A stretch of DNA of 63,918 bases from an uncultured bacterium (GTDB lineage: Bacteria > Bacillota_I > Bacilli_A > RF39 > UBA660): positions 1-63,918 of the forward strand of contig CASFOW010000035.1 in NCBI GenBank assembly GCA_949296705.1, given 5' to 3'. Positions 12,316 to 40,683 of this stretch are shown here, piece after piece (the stretch's first letter is position 1; every line of letters starts with the position of its first letter). Under the pieces are notes generated by a model, which had not been told where the DNA came from, did not search any database, and saw only the letters and a list, made by a program, of their open reading frames with translations. A program made the translations under genes and the position numbers.

Positions 12316-12341
12316 AAAATTATTTCCCGGGAAATAATTTT
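12316..12341. promoter_or_regulatory. Noc-binding site (NBS), single copy
   Basis: The core TATTTCCCGGGAAATA (12321-12336) is a perfect match to the Bacillus Noc site, extended to a 26-base perfect palindrome. It lies between pth and rsmI, about 17 kb left of oriC. Confidence 0.85.
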
Positions 12342-19299: not shown

Positions 19300-19311
19300 A
19301 TATATTCTCCC

Positions 19312-19394
19312 AAAAAAAAGTGCACATAAATATAAAATGTTAAGGCTGCTATCTTCCGATCCTGACCTGGTTCCATCCATATTTATTGCACATC
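19312..19394 (-). ncRNA. ffs: Signal recognition particle RNA (small, 4.5S-like)
   Basis: The minus strand contains the universally conserved SRP domain IV core, ACCAGGTCAGGATCGGAAG then ATAGCAGCC. The flanks GTGCAATAAATAT (from 19391) and ATATTTATGTGCAC (to 19320) pair to close the hairpin, and eight T residues follow. At about 80 nt this is the short bacterial form without the Alu domain, unlike the long Bacillus scRNA. It binds Ffh for co-translational membrane targeting. It lies between the parS-NBS block and tadA, the usual tadA-dnaX neighbourhood. Confidence 0.93.
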
Positions 19395-19397
19395 AAT

Positions 19398-19426
19398 ATT
19401 TTAATATATTTTATCCACAATTTCAA
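19398..19426 (-). promoter_or_regulatory. SRP RNA promoter containing a DnaA box
   Basis: On the minus strand TTGAAA (19421-19426), a 17-base spacer and TAAAAT (19398-19403) place the start at about 19391, the 5' end of the RNA hairpin. The spacer contains a perfect DnaA box (TTATCCACA on plus, 19411-19419), so DnaA binding could affect this promoter. Confidence 0.65.
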
Positions 19427-19463
19427 TAAAAATACAAAATTTTCTATTATTTTTTTATCCACA
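19411..19463 (+). promoter_or_regulatory. Two perfect DnaA boxes left of the parS-NBS array
   Basis: TTATCCACA occurs at 19411-19419 and 19455-19463, both in the same orientation and 44 bases apart. A third copy is at 20692-20700 on the other side of the array. These are exact matches to the DnaA consensus, outside oriC but within 11 kb of it. Confidence 0.7.
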
Positions 19464-19475
19464 ATTTAATTAGAA

Positions 19476-19520
19476 TGTTTCACGTGAAACATTGGGTATA
19501 AAATTATTTCCCGGGAAATA
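19476..19520. promoter_or_regulatory. parS-NBS box 1
   Basis: Perfect parS TGTTTCACGTGAAACA (19476-19491) and perfect NBS TATTTCCCGGGAAATA (19505-19520), joined by TTGGGTATAAAAT. Followed by a type A spacer. Confidence 0.9.
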
Positions 19521-19673
19521 ATTTATATCTATTTAATCAATAAACATCTCTAAATGTAGTCACAATTATATTCTTTTAAACTTTATGCAATAGATCAACA
19601 TTTATCTATAAATATTAATCATCTATAAAGCATTATTAAAAAGGAATAAAGAAAGTTAACATTAATTTTTCAA

Positions 19674-19718
19674 TGTTTCACGTGAAACATTGGGTATAAA
19701 ATTATTTCCCGGGAAATA
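19674..19718. promoter_or_regulatory. parS-NBS box 2
   Basis: Perfect parS (19674-19689) and perfect NBS (19703-19718), with the same GGGTATAAAA linker as box 1. Followed by a type B spacer. Confidence 0.9.
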
Positions 19719-19894
19719 ATTTTGTGAAATATATCAAAGTACAAACAAATAATTTGAATACTTAAACAAAGAATTTAGGCTAATTATACAATCTTTTGGT
19801 ATTAATAGAACCAAATGTATTATCTGTAAGAACATAAGCTAATACAAATTTAAATATTTCAAAAAATTAAACACAAATAAATAACATTTTTCAA

Positions 19895-19939
19895 TGTTTC
19901 ACGTGAAACATTGTGCATAAAATTATTTCCCGGGAAATA
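19895..19939. promoter_or_regulatory. parS-NBS box 3
   Basis: Perfect parS (19895-19910) and perfect NBS (19924-19939) with a GTGCATAAAA linker. Followed by a type A spacer. Confidence 0.9.
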
Positions 19940-20103
19940 ATTTATAGCTATTTTATTCAATAGATATCTTTAAATTCAGTCACAATTATATTCCTTTAAA
20001 CTTTATACGATAGATTAACATATATCTATAAAGTAAATAACATATTAATCATCCATAGACTTTCTTAAAAAGAAAATAAAGAAAGTCAATAATGGTTTTT
20101 CAA

Positions 20104-20148
20104 TGTTTCACGAGAAACATTGTGTACAAAATTATATACCGGGAAATA
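20104..20148. promoter_or_regulatory. parS-NBS box 4, degenerate
   Basis: parS at 20104-20119 has one change (CACGAG for CACGTG), and NBS at 20133-20148 has two changes in its left half (TATATACC). The spacing is unchanged. This is the only box with both sites altered. Confidence 0.8.
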
Positions 20149-20301
20149 ATTAATAGCCATTTTATTAAATAGATATCTATAATTCAGTCACAATTATATT
20201 CTTTTAAACTTTATACGATAGTTCAACATTTATCTATAAATATTATTCATCTATAAGACATTATTAAAAAGGAATAAAGAAAATCAAGAATAATTTTTCA
20301 A

Positions 20302-20346
20302 TGTTTCACGTGGAACATTGGGTATAAAATTATTTCCCGGGAAATA
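20302..20346. promoter_or_regulatory. parS-NBS box 5
   Basis: parS at 20302-20317 has one change (GGAACA for GAAACA); NBS at 20331-20346 is perfect. The linker GGGTATAAAA matches boxes 1 and 2. Followed by the second type B spacer. Confidence 0.85.
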
Positions 20347-20524
20347 ATTTTGTGAAATAAATCAAAGTACAAACAGATAATTTGAATACTTAAACAAAGA
20401 ATTTAGGCTAATTATACAATCTTTTGGTATTAATAGAGCCAAAAGTATTATCTATAAGAACATAACTAATACAAATTTAAATATTTTAGAAAAAAATTAA
20501 ACATAAATAAATATACTTTTTCAA

Positions 20525-20569
20525 TGTTTCACGTGAAACATTGTGCACAAAATTATTTCCCGGGAAATA
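20525..20569. promoter_or_regulatory. parS-NBS box 6
   Basis: Perfect parS (20525-20540) and perfect NBS (20554-20569) with a GTGCACAAAA linker. Followed by a partial type A spacer. Confidence 0.9.
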
Positions 20570-20691
20570 ATTTATATCCATTTAATCAATAAACATCTTT
20601 AAATTCAGCACAATTAAATTCCTTTAAACTTTATGCGATAGATCAACAATTATCTATAAAATAAGTAATAGTTATCAATACAAATAAAGTT

Positions 20692-20700
20692 TTATCCACA
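20692..20700 (+). promoter_or_regulatory. DnaA box right of the array
   Basis: A perfect TTATCCACA directly abuts the A-run of the gyrA terminator, mirroring the two boxes on the left of the array. Confidence 0.6.
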
Positions 20701-20729
20701 AAAAAACATAGATCAATTATGACCTATGT
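20699..20729 (-). terminator. Terminator of recF-gyrB-gyrA
   Basis: On the minus strand ACATAGGTCA, TAAT and TGATCTATGT form a ten-pair stem (one G-T) followed by six T residues. Its upstream arm shares three bases with the seventh parS. Confidence 0.8.
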
Positions 20730-20742
20730 TTCACGTGAAACA
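20727..20742. promoter_or_regulatory. Solitary parS next to the gyrA stop
   Basis: A perfect TGTTTCACGTGAAACA with no NBS partner lies eight bases from the gyrA stop codon and overlaps the base of the gyrA terminator hairpin. Confidence 0.88.
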
Positions 20743-20750
20743 TTAAAATT

Positions 20751-23195
20751 TTATTCCACATTTTCTACTTCTTCCACTTCCGATTCAGGGGCACTATCAA
20801 TTACGGATACAGTCGCGACTCGCTGATCCTCCTTCAAATGAATTAATCTCACTCCTTGTGTAGCTCGTTTAAGTGTAGAAATCTGATCCATTGGCATCCT
20901 CATGATTATACCGTTGTCAGTAATAATAATTAAATCATCAGCATCTGTAACAGCTTTCAAAGAAACCATATTTCCATTCTTTTCAGTTATATGCAAAGCC
21001 ATAACTCCCTTGCTACCACGATGAGTTAATCGATATTCATCAACCTCAGTTTTCTTACCATAACCATTAACAGTAACAACTAAAATCTTTTGAGAATTAT
21101 CCACAACTTCGCCACCAACAGTAATCGCACCATCTAATTCCATTCCTTTAACACCAGAAGCAGTTCTTCCCATTACCCGAATTTCTTTTTCACTAAATCT
21201 AACCATACGTCCGTTCGATGCACCTATCAATACTTCGTTCTCACCTGTCGTTTTACGAACTGAAATTAATTCGTCATCTTCTTTTAACGTTATAGCCAGC
21301 TTACCACTTGATCTAATATTATCAAATTCAGATAAATTCGTCCTTTTTACCAATCCATTCTTAGTAATAAACAACAAATAATTAAACGAATGTTCGCTAG
21401 CTTCCAGAGTAACAACAGAACTTATATATTCTTCTTTCTCAAGAGGAAGTAAATTAATAATCGGTAATCCCTTGCTCTGACGACTGTATTCAGGAATTTC
21501 ATAACCTTTCATCCGATATACTTTGCCCTTATTCGTAAAGAATAAAATATAATCATGAGTACTCATATTGATCATCTTTTCTACAAAATCCTCTTCATTA
21601 GTTGTCATACCTTTTATTCCTACACCACCGCGATTTTGTGTACGATAAGCATCAACTGGCATACGTTTAATGTATCCTTTATTCGTTAAAGTAATCAAAG
21701 TCTGTTCTACCGGAATTAAAGACTCATCTTCAATATATTCAATAGCAGTCATATCAATTGTTGTTCTACGTTCATCAGCATATTTATCTTTAATTTCCAA
21801 TAATTCGTTCTTAATAACTTCCAAAATCTTTTCGTCACTACTCAAAATTAACCTTAGCTCCCCTATCAACTTTAATAAGTCAGCCAATTCATTTTCAATT
21901 TTTTCTCGCTCTAATCCAGTTAACCTTCTTAATTTCATCTCTAAAATCGCATTAGCTTGAACCTCTGATAAACCAAATTTCGACATTAAACCAGACCGAG
22001 CTTCATCATCAGAATTAGCTGCTTTAATTAGCTGAATAATTTCATCAATATTATCAAGAGCTATCTTCAACCCTTCTAAAATATGAACACGTTTCTCTGC
22101 ATTTTCCAAATCAAAACGAGTTCTACGAATAATTACTTCGCGTTGAAAATCAATATATTTAGCGATAATATCCTTTAATCCTAATGTTTTAGGAACACCT
22201 TGATCAAGCATAAGGAAAATAATACCATAACTAACTTGGAGACTAGTATGCTTATACAATTTATTCAAAACAACCTGGGCATTAGCATCCTTCTTCAAGG
22301 TAATCGTAATCTTAATGCCATCTTTTAAATCTGAATGATAATCTGAAATTCCCTCAATTGTCTTATTATGAACAAGTTCAGCAACTTTATTTTTTAAATC
22401 TAAAGTATTAATTCCATAAGGTACTTCTTCAATAATAATATAGTGTTTGCCATTCTTTTCCTCAATATGAGCCTTACTGCGTATAGTAATAGAGCCTCTA
22501 CCTGTTTCATATGCTTTTCTAATACCACTATTTCCTAAAATAGTAGCACCAGTAGGAAAATCAGGTCCTTTTACATACTGCATTAATTCATTTAACTCAA
22601 TGTCTGGATTATCAATATAAGCAACACAACCATCAATAACTTCACCCAAATTATGAGGCGGGATATTTGTAGCCATCCCAACAGCAATACCTGTAGTACC
22701 ATTTACTAAAATATTAGGAAATCTAGAAGGTAAAACAACGGGCTCCTTTGTAGATTCATCAAAGTTTGGAATAAAATCAACCGTATTTTTATTGATATTT
22801 CTAAGTAACTCCAAAGAAATCTTCGAAAGTCTAGATTCTGTGTATCGCATAGCAGCAGCGCCATAACCTTCAATATTTCCGAAGTTACCATGACCATCTA
22901 TCAACATGTAACGATAAGAAAAATCTTGAGCCATTCTTACCATAGCTTCATAAATAGAAGAATCACCGTGTGGGTGATAATTACCCATAACTTCACCGAC
23001 AGTTTTCGCACTTTTTTTATGAGGCTTATCTGGCGTATAACCAGACTCATACATAGAATATAAAATTCGACGATGAACAGGTTTTAAACCGTCACGAAGA
23101 TCAGGAATAGCACGTGCAGTTATAACACTCATCGAATAATCCAAAAAAGAATCTTGTACTTCTTTTACAATATTATTGTGTTCTAATCTATCCAT
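20751..23195 (-). CDS. gyrA: DNA gyrase subunit A
   Basis: GyrA is the breakage-reunion subunit of gyrase, which introduces negative supercoils. The catalytic Tyr is residue 118 in AMRYTESR. The quinolone-determining region reads [12 protein letters not shown] with Ser79 at the usual resistance position, i.e. the wild-type-like residue. C-terminal beta-pinwheel blades include a GyrA box ([10 protein letters not shown]). Length (814 aa) is normal. It follows gyrB by 12 bases with GGAGG upstream, in a recF-gyrB-gyrA operon ending at the terminator beside the parS-NBS block. Confidence 0.98.
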
Positions 23196-32035: not shown

Positions 32036-32060
32036 AAAATTATTTCCCGGGAAATAATTT
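32036..32060. promoter_or_regulatory. Noc-binding site between jag and mnmE
   Basis: A perfect TATTTCCCGGGAAATA at 32041-32056, with AAAAT before it and ATTT after it extending the palindrome. No parS is next to it. It lies about 50 bases upstream of the mnmE -10. Confidence 0.85.
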
Positions 32061-33571: not shown

Positions 33572-33597
33572 AAAATTATTTCCCGGGAAATAATTTT
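33572..33597. promoter_or_regulatory. Noc-binding site between mnmE and mnmG
   Basis: A perfect TATTTCCCGGGAAATA at 33577-33592, palindrome extended by AAAAT on the left and ATTTT on the right. It is only about 30 bases upstream of the mnmG -10 (TATAAT, 33622-33627), so Noc binding could affect that promoter. Confidence 0.85.
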
Positions 33598-36216: not shown

Positions 36217-37641
36217 ATGCTAAAATACTATAAAAATGTGGTAAAGTATAATGAAAATGTCCAGTATGGACTAGGTATCATTACCGGCTGGAAATCAACG
36301 GATATGATTTTAAATCATCTAAGTGAAGAAGCTAAGAGAAAAATTGTAACCTGTGGTAATTTATACACTAAAAATGGTATTAATTATATAATAGCTAACT
36401 TGTTTTTAAATCCACAGATCACAGAATTAATTGTTTTGGAAGATTCTTCATTACAAAATGAAATGGCAGAAGGTATAACTGCTTTTTTACAATTTCTAAA
36501 CACTAACGTGTTAACTTTTGAACCAAAATTTCAATTTACAGAAGAAAACTTATTAGAATTTAGTTCCTATTTTAAAAATCATATCAGAGTAGTAAAGAGA
36601 AAAGACTTAGAAAAGGAATTAAAAGAAATAAAAATATTGGAAAAAGACTGGTGTAAAATTACCGAGATTGAAGAAAATCCTTTAGAACTCCAGCATCAAA
36701 TTCCAAGTGAAAAGGTAGGTTTTACGGTACGAGCCAATACTGTCTATGAAGCGTGGAATCGTGCCTTAAAATTAATTCACACCTATGGATACTTAAAACC
36801 ATCTGATTATGATGAAAATCAATTAGAACTAATTAATTTATCTATGATTATCAGAAATGAAGATTTGAGTGATCCAAGTATGGCTGGAATAATTGACATT
36901 ACTAAAGAAGAATTAGAAGAATATGAGAAAAGTATTCTTTCTAAAGCTGTGCCTGATGGAGTAAAATACACTTATGGAAATCGTTATCGGGATCAATTTG
37001 GGAAAGATCAATTTCAATATATGGTAGATACATTAAGAGAAAAGCCCTTTTCTAGAAGAGCGGTTGCTACTCTTTGGATTCCCGCTATCGATATTGAAGC
37101 CAAAGAGGGACCATGCCTTGACCTGTATCAAGCTATAATTGAAGGAGAATATCTTCATCTTCTTACTTATATCAGAGCTAATGATGTCTATAACGGTTGG
37201 CCTAGAAATATTTATGGGATTTTAAAAATTCAACAAGAACTATGCCAATCTCTTGGCTATCAAAAAGGCTATGTCAATACCATTGCAGGAAGTGCTCATA
37301 TTTACGAGAGGAATTTTGCAGATTTAGAAAAACGCTTGAATGAAAAAAACATTTCTTTTTGTGAAGAAGATGAAAGAGGATATTTTACCGTAACAATAGA
37401 AAATCAAGAGATTCAAGTTACTTTCTATAGTGTATCAGGTAAAGAATTACGTAAATTTACAGGAAAAAGTGCTCTTGAATTGAGAAATCAATGCACTTTT
37501 TACATCAGTAATATCGATCATGCTTTCTATTTAGGACAAGAGTTAATAAAAGCAGAATTAGCACTTAAAAATCAACTTTCCTATGTACAAGATACACAAT
37601 TAGACATAAGTTCAAAGAAAAAAATTTTAAAACTCAAGTAA
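36217..37641 (+). CDS. Thymidylate-synthase-like protein with N-terminal fusion
   Basis: The C-terminal half (about residues 230-410) has the thymidylate synthase fold. It shows YGNRYRDQFG, SRRAVATLW, the nucleophile region GPCLDL (Cys300), RANDVYNGWPRN (Asn331 at the dUMP-selecting position) and AHIYERN. The usual His after the catalytic Cys is Leu here, and Ser of the R-S-x-D phosphate site is Ala. The N-terminal half (GIITGWKSTD, GNLYTKNG, ANLFLNPQI) resembles the DUF4346/MtrA-like domains found with some archaeal-type synthases. At 474 aa it is much longer than ThyA (264-316). No other thymidylate synthase is visible, so it may supply dTMP or modify another nucleotide. It is inserted between rsmG and noc. 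Confidence 0.65.
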   Translation: MLKYYKNVVKYNENVQYGLGIITGWKSTDMILNHLSEEAKRKIVTCGNLYTKNGINYIIANLFLNPQITELIVLEDSSLQNEMAEGITAFLQFLNTNVLTFEPKFQFTEENLLEFSSYFKNHIRVVKRKDLEKELKEIKILEKDWCKITEIEENPLELQHQIPSEKVGFTVRANTVYEAWNRALKLIHTYGYLKPSDYDENQLELINLSMIIRNEDLSDPSMAGIIDITKEELEEYEKSILSKAVPDGVKYTYGNRYRDQFGKDQFQYMVDTLREKPFSRRAVATLWIPAIDIEAKEGPCLDLYQAIIEGEYLHLLTYIRANDVYNGWPRNIYGILKIQQELCQSLGYQKGYVNTIAGSAHIYERNFADLEKRLNEKNISFCEEDERGYFTVTIENQEIQVTFYSVSGKELRKFTGKSALELRNQCTFYISNIDHAFYLGQELIKAELALKNQLSYVQDTQLDISSKKKILKLK

Positions 37642-37772: not shown

Positions 37773-38900
37773 ATGGATAGAGAAGTAGTGGATTTGTATT
37801 TAGATGACATTATCCCTAACCGTTTTCAACCACGTGAAGTATTTAATGAACAGGCTTTACGAGAATTAGCTGATTCCATCCGAGCGCATGGAGTAATTCA
37901 ACCAATCATTGTCCGTAAAATAGGAGATAAATACGAAATAATTGCTGGAGAGAGAAGATATAAAGCATCAGCGATGGCAGGCCTAACTAAGATTCCGGCT
38001 ATTATTAGAAATTTAGATGATAAAGAAACTTCAAAAGTAGCTTTACTAGAAAACTTACAACGAAAAGATCTAACACCAATAGAAGAAGCGAGAACTTATC
38101 AAAAAATCCTAGAGCTAGATTCGATGACTCAAGAAGAACTTGGACGTACTATGGGAAAATCTCAAGCTTCAATTGCCAATAAAATGCGTTTGTTATCTTT
38201 ACCAGATGAAGTTCAAGAAGCACTACTTCATGACCAGATATCAGAAAGGCATGCCAGAAGTTTATTAAATTTAGATTCAAGAGAAGATCAAATCAATATG
38301 CTTCATGATATTATTGAAAAAAGAATGACAGTTAGAGAACTAGATAATGCAATTAGAAAATTAAAAGGAATAGAAGAACCGATTTCTAATGAAACTAATT
38401 CAGGAAATGTGAATTTGGAAACCAACCCAATAACTAATACTCCATCACCAATAGAAATTCCAAGTCCAGTTACTCCGTCTAATCCCACAATAAACTTGGA
38501 TAACGATATTCCTCATCCTCCAATAGACTTGCTTGCTTCATCGAATCAGGCTAGTTCTAAAGTAGAGACGGTAGAAAAAACTCCACAAGTTAATACAAAA
38601 TCGCCATCAACACCAGTAAAGAATATCTTTGTTTTAAATGATGATGAAGATGACTCATCTATGACCATAGAACCACATCAATCAACTCCAACTTCTGGAG
38701 TAAGTAACAAAAAGATTGTCCATACTGATCCAGTTGAGGAATTATTGGATGATGAAGAATTGTATTCATTAAAAGATGCAGTAAAAGAACTAAGAAGAAC
38801 AGTAAGTAATCTAGAAAATAAAGGATTTGTTATTAAAGTCGAAGAATTAGATTTCGAAAATACTTATCAAGTAGTAGTAAAAATCAATAAAGATATCTAA
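37773..38900 (+). CDS. noc: Nucleoid occlusion protein Noc, no membrane helix
   Basis: A ParB-family CTPase. The N-domain has NRFQPR (16-21) and the CTP-binding GERRYKA (59-65). In the helix-turn-helix, Gln131, Lys137 and Arg159 occupy ParB positions 173, 179 and 201 and match Noc rather than ParB. The C-terminal dimer domain (about 325-375) also resembles Noc. The N-terminal amphipathic helix of Bacillus Noc is missing: the protein starts MDREVVDLYL at the ParB fold, a stop codon lies two codons upstream in frame, and GAGGG precedes the ATG. An extra Pro/Ser/Asn-rich linker (about 200-320) makes it 375 aa against about 283. In Bacillus Noc binds NBS and blocks FtsZ-ring assembly over the nucleoid. 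Confidence 0.92.
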   Translation: MDREVVDLYLDDIIPNRFQPREVFNEQALRELADSIRAHGVIQPIIVRKIGDKYEIIAGERRYKASAMAGLTKIPAIIRNLDDKETSKVALLENLQRKDLTPIEEARTYQKILELDSMTQEELGRTMGKSQASIANKMRLLSLPDEVQEALLHDQISERHARSLLNLDSREDQINMLHDIIEKRMTVRELDNAIRKLKGIEEPISNETNSGNVNLETNPITNTPSPIEIPSPVTPSNPTINLDNDIPHPPIDLLASSNQASSKVETVEKTPQVNTKSPSTPVKNIFVLNDDEDDSSMTIEPHQSTPTSGVSNKKIVHTDPVEELLDDEELYSLKDAVKELRRTVSNLENKGFVIKVEELDFENTYQVVVKINKDI

Positions 38901-38996: not shown

Positions 38997-39806
38997 ATGG
39001 GAAAGATAATATCATTAGTAAATCAAAAAGGTGGAGTAGGAAAAACGACAACGAGTATCAATCTTTCTGCGTCTTTAGCTTACTTAGGAAAAAGAGTATT
39101 GTTAATCGATTTGGATCCTCAAGGAAATGCAACAACAGGCGTGGGTATCAATAAAGGAGATATTAGTAAAAGTGTTCACGATGTTATGACAGAAAAATGT
39201 AATGTAATCGAAGCAATTATTAAAACAAAATATAAAAATCTTTATCTTCTGCCGGCAACAATTAATTTAGCTGGTATTGATATTGAGCTTATGGAAAAAA
39301 GTAAACTGGATCAAAACTTTTCAAAGAATGTTCAATTAAAAAAAGCATTAGATCCTATTAAGGAGTCATTTGACTATATCATTATTGATTGCCCACCATC
39401 ACTCGGTTTAATTACAACTAATGCCCTAACGGCATCTAATTCTGTAATTATTCCCGTTCAGTGTGAATTTTTTGCCCTTGAAGGAATTACCCAGCTACTA
39501 AATACAATCATGTTAGCACAAAAGAATTTAAATCCTAACCTAGATATTGAAGGGGTTCTTCTTACTATGCTCGATTCACGAGCAATTCTATGCTTAGAAG
39601 TAGTAGAAGATATTAGAAGATTCTTTAAAGAGCGAGTATATAATACCATCATCCCAAGACTTGTTAGGATTGCTGAAGCTCCATCACATGGCACACCGAT
39701 CATCGCCTATGATTCCAAACACCGTGGATCGATTGCTTATTTAAATTTAGCAAAGGAAGTGATTGAAAGAAATGGAAACACAAACACAACTACAAACACA
39801 AAGTAG
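38997..39806 (+). CDS. soj: Chromosome partitioning ATPase Soj (ParA)
   Basis: A deviant Walker-A ATPase. The motif KGGVGKTTTS is near residue 11 and LIDLDPQGNATTG and DCPPSLG follow. In Bacillus Soj acts with Spo0J in origin segregation and regulates DnaA. Length 269 aa. The 3' end overlaps spo0J by 35 bases. Confidence 0.96.
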   Translation: MGKIISLVNQKGGVGKTTTSINLSASLAYLGKRVLLIDLDPQGNATTGVGINKGDISKSVHDVMTEKCNVIEAIIKTKYKNLYLLPATINLAGIDIELMEKSKLDQNFSKNVQLKKALDPIKESFDYIIIDCPPSLGLITTNALTASNSVIIPVQCEFFALEGITQLLNTIMLAQKNLNPNLDIEGVLLTMLDSRAILCLEVVEDIRRFFKERVYNTIIPRLVRIAEAPSHGTPIIAYDSKHRGSIAYLNLAKEVIERNGNTNTTTNTK

Positions 39807-40683
39807 AAGAAAAGCCTTAGGAAGAGGCTTAGAAGAATTATTCAATAATGAACCAATGAATTATGAAACAATCGAGGAAAAAATCATTACATCAACTCCA
39901 AAAGAAGAAATTGTAGAGTTAAATTTATCAGAATTACGTAGTAATCCTTATCAACCTCGTAAAAATTTTGATGAAAGAGCTCTTCAAGAATTAGCGAATT
40001 CTATTAAAGAATATGGTGTATTTCAACCAATAATTGCCAAAAAAAGTATAAAGGGCTACGAAATTATAGCCGGTGAAAGACGAGTAAAAGCATCAATTTT
40101 AGCGGGAAAGGAAACAATTCCAGCTATTCTTCGTGACTTTAGCGACCAAGAGATGATGGAAATCGCCCTATTAGAGAATCTACAACGTGAAAATCTAAAT
40201 GCCTTAGAGGAAGCACTTGCTTATAAAAAATTGATTGAAGAACTATCCCTAACCCAAGAAGCATTAGCCAAAAGAATTGGTAAAAGTAGAAGTCATATTA
40301 CCAATATGTTGGGAATTTTGACATTACCAGAAGAAGTAAAAGACCTAATCATGGAGAATAAATTGACAATGGGGCATGCCCGTGCATTAAGTAAATTAGA
40401 AAATCCAACAAAAATTAAAGATCTAGCTCAAAAAGTAGTAATGGAGAATTTAAGTGTTCGTCAAGTAGAAAATTTAGCTTTTGAACCAACAGAAGAAAAA
40501 AATCATAAAACGAAGAAAGTAAATATTTCTACAGAATATCGAAATATTGAGGAAAGTTTATCCGAAAAGTTAGGAACTAAAGTAAAAATTAATCATAATA
40601 AATTAGAAATTTCTTTCGTCAATCGTAATGATTTAAATCGCCTATTAGAAATAATAGGGATTGATCAAGAGAAAACCATCTGA
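39772..40683 (+). CDS. spo0J: Chromosome partitioning protein Spo0J (ParB)
   Basis: A CTP-dependent DNA clamp that loads at parS and slides. The N-terminal GRGLEELF is the ParA-stimulating peptide; NPYQPR and GERRVKA form the CTP site (near residues 58-63 and 101-107). The helix-turn-helix has Arg173, Met179, Thr184 and Gly201, the parS-type Arg/Gly pair rather than the Noc Gln/Arg pair. Seven candidate parS sites lie 19-20 kb away at 19.5-20.7 kb. The start is the ATG at 39772; a TTG three codons earlier is possible. Length 303 aa. Confidence 0.95.
   Translation: METQTQLQTQSRRKALGRGLEELFNNEPMNYETIEEKIITSTPKEEIVELNLSELRSNPYQPRKNFDERALQELANSIKEYGVFQPIIAKKSIKGYEIIAGERRVKASILAGKETIPAILRDFSDQEMMEIALLENLQRENLNALEEALAYKKLIEELSLTQEALAKRIGKSRSHITNMLGILTLPEEVKDLIMENKLTMGHARALSKLENPTKIKDLAQKVVMENLSVRQVENLAFEPTEEKNHKTKKVNISTEYRNIEESLSEKLGTKVKINHNKLEISFVNRNDLNRLLEIIGIDQEKTI

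Follow-up and report, generated by a model that had tools for sequence, protein, structure and literature searches.

Clusters of parS sites near the replication origin are well known, and Noc and ParB are textbook paralogues, regarded as having diverged both in function and in the sites that they bind. The closest described counterparts of the locus studied here are the Soj/Spo0J/parS system of B. subtilis and the Noc proteins of B. subtilis and S. aureus with their Noc-binding sites (NBS). For NBS binding, Q173 and R201 together with one permissive lysine (K179 and/or K184) are sufficient (Jalal et al. 2020, PMC7383237). The N-terminal 10 residues of B. subtilis Noc are its membrane-targeting determinant and are required for function (PMC8429893, PMC4331003), and all homologues examined in a 2015 study were predicted to have a membrane-targeting helix (PMC4331003). 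In S. aureus, minor binding of Noc occurs near dnaA (PMC5540599).

We analysed 63,918 nt of contig CASFOW010000035.1 (positions 1-63,918; the window in what follows) in a 1.58 Mb assembly (GCA_949296705.1) from an uncultured member of the Bacilli. It belongs to a large family of uncultured gut Bacilli with more than 150 genera, which we call the host family throughout. The minus strand of the window encodes dnaA, dnaN, recF, gyrB and gyrA, and oriC lies upstream of dnaA; on the other side of oriC lie jag, mnmE, mnmG, rsmG, noc, parA and parB. Common replication genes bear the names that we take to apply from sequence and order. Between rsmG and noc, positions 36217-37641 encode a protein of 474 aa that combines a thymidylate synthase domain of the methanogen type with an MtrA-like C-terminal stretch.

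The gene-free block next to gyrA contains seven parS sites (TGTTTCACGTGAAACA), five of them exact and two with one mismatch, where 0.47 sites with up to three mismatches would be expected by chance in the whole window. Six of the seven are followed by an NBS (TATTTCCCGGGAAATA), always after a gap of 13 bp, that is, at 29 bp centre-to-centre (Table 1). A reading made from the sequence alone had described six parS-NBS boxes and a seventh, lone parS in a gene-free block about 9-10 kb from oriC. Both statements were borne out; measured from the 5' end of dnaA, the seven sites are 8.9-10.1 kb away. When the 1.58 Mb assembly was searched, no further parS (≤1 mismatch) was found beyond these seven, and exact NBS were found in the block and at three lone positions of the window and nowhere else. 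In our reading, the block is the only parS centromere of the chromosome, 9-10 kb from oriC. The parS variant of box 5 is frequent in the host family.

Table 1. Sites and genes of the window (positions on the contig; gaps are those between parS and NBS)
Feature	Position	Strand	Remarks
SRP RNA, bacterial small	19311..19397	-	far edge of the block
centromere block	19398-20750		no gene inside; between gyrA stop and SRP RNA
box 1	19476..19520	+	parS 19476-19491, 13 bp, NBS 19505-19520; exact
box 2	19674..19718	+	parS 19674-19689, 13 bp, NBS 19703-19718; exact
box 3	19895..19939	+	parS 19895-19910, 13 bp, NBS 19924-19939; exact
box 4	20104..20148	+	both halves degenerate: parS from 20104, 1 mismatch, 13 bp, NBS from 20133, 2 mismatches
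box 5	20302..20346	+	parS from 20302, 1 mismatch (TGTTTCACGTGGAACA), 13 bp, exact NBS from 20331
box 6	20525..20569	+	parS 20525-20540, 13 bp, NBS 20554-20569; exact
lone parS	20727..20742	+	9 bp from gyrA stop codon
gyrA	20751..23195	-	stop codon is the start of the block, as in 65 of 67 genomes of the host family
dnaA	28208..29611	-	reference for oriC distances
lone NBS	12321..12336	.	-17.3 kb from dnaA 5' end
lone NBS	32041..32056	.	gap between jag-like gene and mnmE, +2.4 kb; slot common to several genera
lone NBS	33577..33592	.	gap between mnmE and mnmG, +4.0 kb; slot common to several genera
noc	37773..38900	+	Noc orthologue, 375 aa; NTD and HTH, long linker, short C-terminal domain
parA-type ATPase	38997..39806	+	neighbour of parB
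parB	39763..40683	+	canonical ParB: LGRGL ParA-binding motif and dimerisation domain

The boxes are part of six repeat units of 198-223 bp. Across the aligned units, identity was 96% in parS and NBS, 87% in the spacer (without any indel) and 57% in the remainder, indicating that the box was preserved while the rest of the unit drifted. The array clearly grew by duplication, the trace of which is a 300-nt stretch that recurs 628 bp away with 91% identity. Such duplication is what one would expect under the main rival explanation, coincident clustering, in which each site type is selected near the origin, the gene-free stretch after gyrA is the safest place, tandem duplication multiplies chance neighbours and ParB and Noc are not coupled. 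The invariant length of the spacer in six diverged units speaks against it.

We rejected an action of the array via transcription or RNA: the block has no Rfam match and no terminator, and promoter-like matches were close to the shuffled background. Exact DnaA boxes (TTATCCACA) flank the array at window positions 19411, 19455, 20692 and 21097, and across the host family such boxes occur in the parS block at about five times the density seen in other places away from oriC (13 boxes in 61 kb; uncorrected for coding density).

The predicted ParB (306 aa) matches the Pfam domains ParB_N, HTH_ParB and ParB_C, and the predicted Noc has ParB_N and HTH_ParB domains and a long linker rich in Ser, Pro and Thr. 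In the host family, the length of Noc varies from ~340 to 720 aa via this low-complexity linker, and the C-terminal ~45 residues are conserved. In a tree of the shared domains, the family Noc formed a clade with the Noc proteins of B. subtilis and Geobacillus (SH-like support 0.98), and the family ParB grouped with Spo0J (0.93). NCBIfam TIGR04285 was the best match of the window Noc, with 287.5 bits against a curated cut-off of 315; because the score falls below this value, we regard the protein as a Noc orthologue of divergent kind. At the specificity positions 173, 179, 184 and 201, Noc has Q, K, S and R, and ParB has R, M, T and G. Judged by these positions, the specificity residues of the host Noc are of the NBS type and those of the host ParB are of the parS type. 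Both sequences contain the GERR motif of the CTPase fold.

For comparison we used the oriC regions of 80 relatives, nearly all of them one per genus. In 65 of the 67 genomes that cover the place, parS occurred within 2.5 kb downstream of gyrA. Three layouts were seen among the relatives, namely compound arrays, parS-only arrays and NBS-only stretches. Adjacent parS-NBS pairs at 14-110 bp centre-to-centre were present, at least one in each, in 51 genera. In the host family, 39 of 291 genomes, representing 32 of 150 genera, had close pairs of exact cores (16-46 bp), and the reversed-pattern control had zero matches in the same 291 genomes. All 12 genomes with pairs in a class-wide sample belong to the host family, and a scan of named genomes yielded, among the matches listed, only uncultured MAGs, mostly labelled Bacilli, Tenericutes or Erysipelotrichaceae.

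The sequence-only reading had called for a search of related genomes against random expectation, and the outcome was in its favour. Of 58 genomes with both site types within the fetched region, 23 had a parS with an NBS no more than 60 bp away, compared with 9.8 expected when sites were placed at random in non-coding DNA (a count of 23 was not reached in any of 3000 trials). In the 29 genomes with an NBS already inside the parS block, the median distance was ≤60 bp in 22 compared with 14.5 expected (P=0.002), again closer than coincident clustering predicts; at ≤40 bp, the excess in these genomes was not significant (P=0.15). Pairing is not required, because the majority of genomes that have parS and NBS lack a pair within 60 bp. 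Pairs were commoner where noc adjoins parA-parB (13/16 vs 7/29 genomes; Fisher p=4×10−4), a link that may reflect clade as well as function. Coincident clustering would also account for the many genomes that have a parS-only array with NBS elsewhere near oriC, and for the finding that both site order and exact parS-NBS distance differ between genera. We accordingly rejected a fixed spacing and, as both orders were found, a constant order relative to oriC. Many MAG contigs end ~9 kb downstream of dnaA; contig ends at this place fit repeats that break the assembly, so array size is probably under-counted. In the oriC region of one relative (G131, L303), a palindrome adjoining gyrA (TATTTCACGTGAAATA) resembles a parS-NBS hybrid.

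The distances between parS and NBS centres favour half-integer helical turns, with peaks near 27, 36, 46, 58 and 68 bp. Using one value per genome, the 10.5-bp component was significant in 102 genomes (Rayleigh p~1.5×10−5), and the 40-110 bp range alone gave p=5×10−4 with the same phase. In a replication test that was written down before it was run, new pairs at 48-78 bp clustered at 48, 58 and 68 bp [V-test: p=4×10−4 for 26 pairs; p=0.005 with one per genome (n=19)], and a broader parS definition gave p~5×10−6 per genome in the V-test. The phasing was weaker when counted by genus (random-phase p=0.013, or 0.05 for the far range by itself), and a third replicate with the GTTCCACGTGGAAC parS variant, comprising eight genomes only, gave p=0.2. 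The window's 29 bp exceeds the most frequent distance, 26-27 bp, by 2-3 bp. Distances between parS sites in the 40-110 bp range had another phase, near whole turns. Generic AA/TT periodicity is an unlikely source of the phasing: A/T runs share offsets in both sites and would give parS-NBS and parS-parS distances one phase, and the observed phases differ.

Recurrence of the pairing with a conserved spacing had been named at the outset as what distinguishes the arrangement from chance. The pairing does recur, in 51 genera; its length is not fixed, yet it is helically biased. We take the bias to be real, and it constitutes moderate evidence that the two dimers, if bound, would matter to each other. 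With its phase unlike that of parS-parS pairs, it counts against coincident clustering, which the data have made less likely and which we now consider doubtful.

Half-turn phasing would set the two dimers on opposite faces. Such an arrangement would be compatible with antagonism, in which Noc clamps beside parS act as roadblocks or competitors and limit the extent or direction of ParB sliding, and hence the place of SMC loading. Close pairs within one array and the CTP-binding GERR motif retained in both proteins would suit this reading too. However, NBS lie on either side of parS depending on the genus, which leaves no consistent direction for such a block, and we regard antagonism as unlikely.

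The chromosome-wide scatter of NBS that is a hallmark of Noc was not seen in the host family. In 32 fully covered genomes, 74 of the 79 NBS in the whole genome were located within -18 to +16 kb of dnaA, and the median number of NBS per genome was 2. The Noc protein differs as well. In the alignment with Geobacillus Noc, residue 4 of the window Noc falls on residue 27, and an in-frame TAA is located two codons upstream of the ATG. We looked for a Bacillus-type N-terminus in 56 Noc sequences of the family and found it in none of them; the conserved IPNRFQPR motif typically follows after only 10-25 residues, and a few of the genes have longer open upstream frames. Going by these alignments, the N-terminal amphipathic membrane-targeting segment is absent from the window Noc and from nearly all of the 56 family members. 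With this anchor absent, Noc would be unable to occlude division by the known route.

These observations bear on classical nucleoid occlusion, by which Noc would tether the origin region to the membrane and division would be blocked there. Such a protein would be expected to be an orthologue of Bacillus Noc with specificity residues of the NBS type, as is the case here. In contrast, the segment that is missing corresponds to a helix necessary in B. subtilis (PMC4331003, PMC8429893), and the sites are restricted to the origin. We therefore consider classical occlusion very unlikely, and the coupling of origin segregation to division-site occlusion that had been proposed from the sequence is weakened by the same two findings.

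The TATTTCCCGGGAAATA palindromes might be bound by another protein or might be no sites at all. Two genomes whose single ParB-family gene is of the ParB type still have one match each, as this would predict. Against it, the sequence is the known NBS core, and it occurred in 91 of 107 genomes compared with 0 for the reversed control. Moreover, NBS were absent from 4 of 6 genomes without detected noc and from 12 of 101 genomes with noc (Fisher p=0.004), a co-occurrence that involves few cases (six genomes without noc, and G073 alone). In G073 (L321/L322), Noc has V instead of Q173, there are no NBS, and an array of variant parS sites (TGTTACACGTGTAACA) follows gyrA, which probably represents a natural change of specificity. 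Taken together, a different binder, or none, is scarcely credible.

Several individual sites were of note. NBS recur in slots at +2.4 kb and +3.9 kb. In ten genera (G017, G019, G022, G032, G069, G070, G112, G129, G146 and G149), noc is directly preceded by an NBS at a distance of 29-627 bp, which could indicate autoregulation. In G062 and G083, an NBS is located within oriC by dnaA, at +284 and +297 bp. G152, a candidate for Noc in the absence of both ParB and parS, was dropped, as TGTTCCACGTGGAACA sites are present.

Our preferred explanation, which we hold with modest confidence, is a compound origin centromere, in which the array units pair a ParB-loading parS with a Noc-loading NBS and both clamps load. 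Each of the two proteins would be loaded at its own palindrome and would then close into a CTP-dependent sliding clamp, steps that we infer from PMC8429893 and the ParB literature. If both clamps load, close and slide, they would therefore both coat the same few kilobases around the origin. The co-loading platform suggested by the sequence-only reading thus gains support from recurrence above chance and from specificity residues of both types, which predict binding. Since Noc lacks an anchor and nearly all of its sites are in the origin region, it most likely serves as a second clamp in the complex that segregates the origin rather than as a chromosome-wide nucleoid-occlusion factor. In that capacity it might modulate the spreading of ParB or the loading of SMC, or it might signal to replication initiation in the style of S. 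aureus. We propose tentatively, and with less confidence than the compound centromere itself, that clamps are loaded at a set angle on the paired sites and that the anchor-free Noc is a second subunit of the segregation complex.

The loss of the anchor and the confinement of the sites almost exclusively to the origin suggest that the role of this Noc differs from the one known in Bacillus. An origin-centred role appears more likely, and the site map would agree better with a part in the segregation complex or, as for the S. aureus protein, in initiation. An origin-only, anchor-free Noc may even be ancestral to the nucleoid-occlusion Noc of Bacillus. Many lineages of this family of more than 150 genera retain both sites jointly at the origin, with a Noc that would be unable to tether in the known way. 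The host family therefore makes earlier or additional roles of Noc beside nucleoid occlusion testable, and its natural two-clamp loading arrays offer a setting in which crosstalk of sliding CTPase clamps can be measured.

The feature is real, it recurs, and we found no description of it in the literature that was searched. It joins a ParABS centromere to a Noc-NBS system, each of a known kind. With B. subtilis Soj/Spo0J/parS it shares the parS sequence, the proximity to oriC and the canonical motifs of ParA and ParB; it differs in its gene-free tandem parS array interleaved with NBS. With the Noc-NBS system of B. subtilis and S. aureus it has in common the NBS core (ATTTCCCGGGAAAT), an orthologous protein and NBS-type residues. 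Unlike the Noc of these species, the protein described here lacks the N-terminal helix and has a long, disordered-looking linker. An origin-linked role would resemble the control of initiation by S. aureus Noc (PMC5540599), and the two genera with an NBS less than 300 bp from dnaA recall the binding of that protein near dnaA. In S. aureus, however, scattered NBS are kept (41 ChIP loci) and no parS-NBS compound sites have been reported (PMC5540599), whereas in the host family nearly all NBS are located within 18 kb of dnaA.
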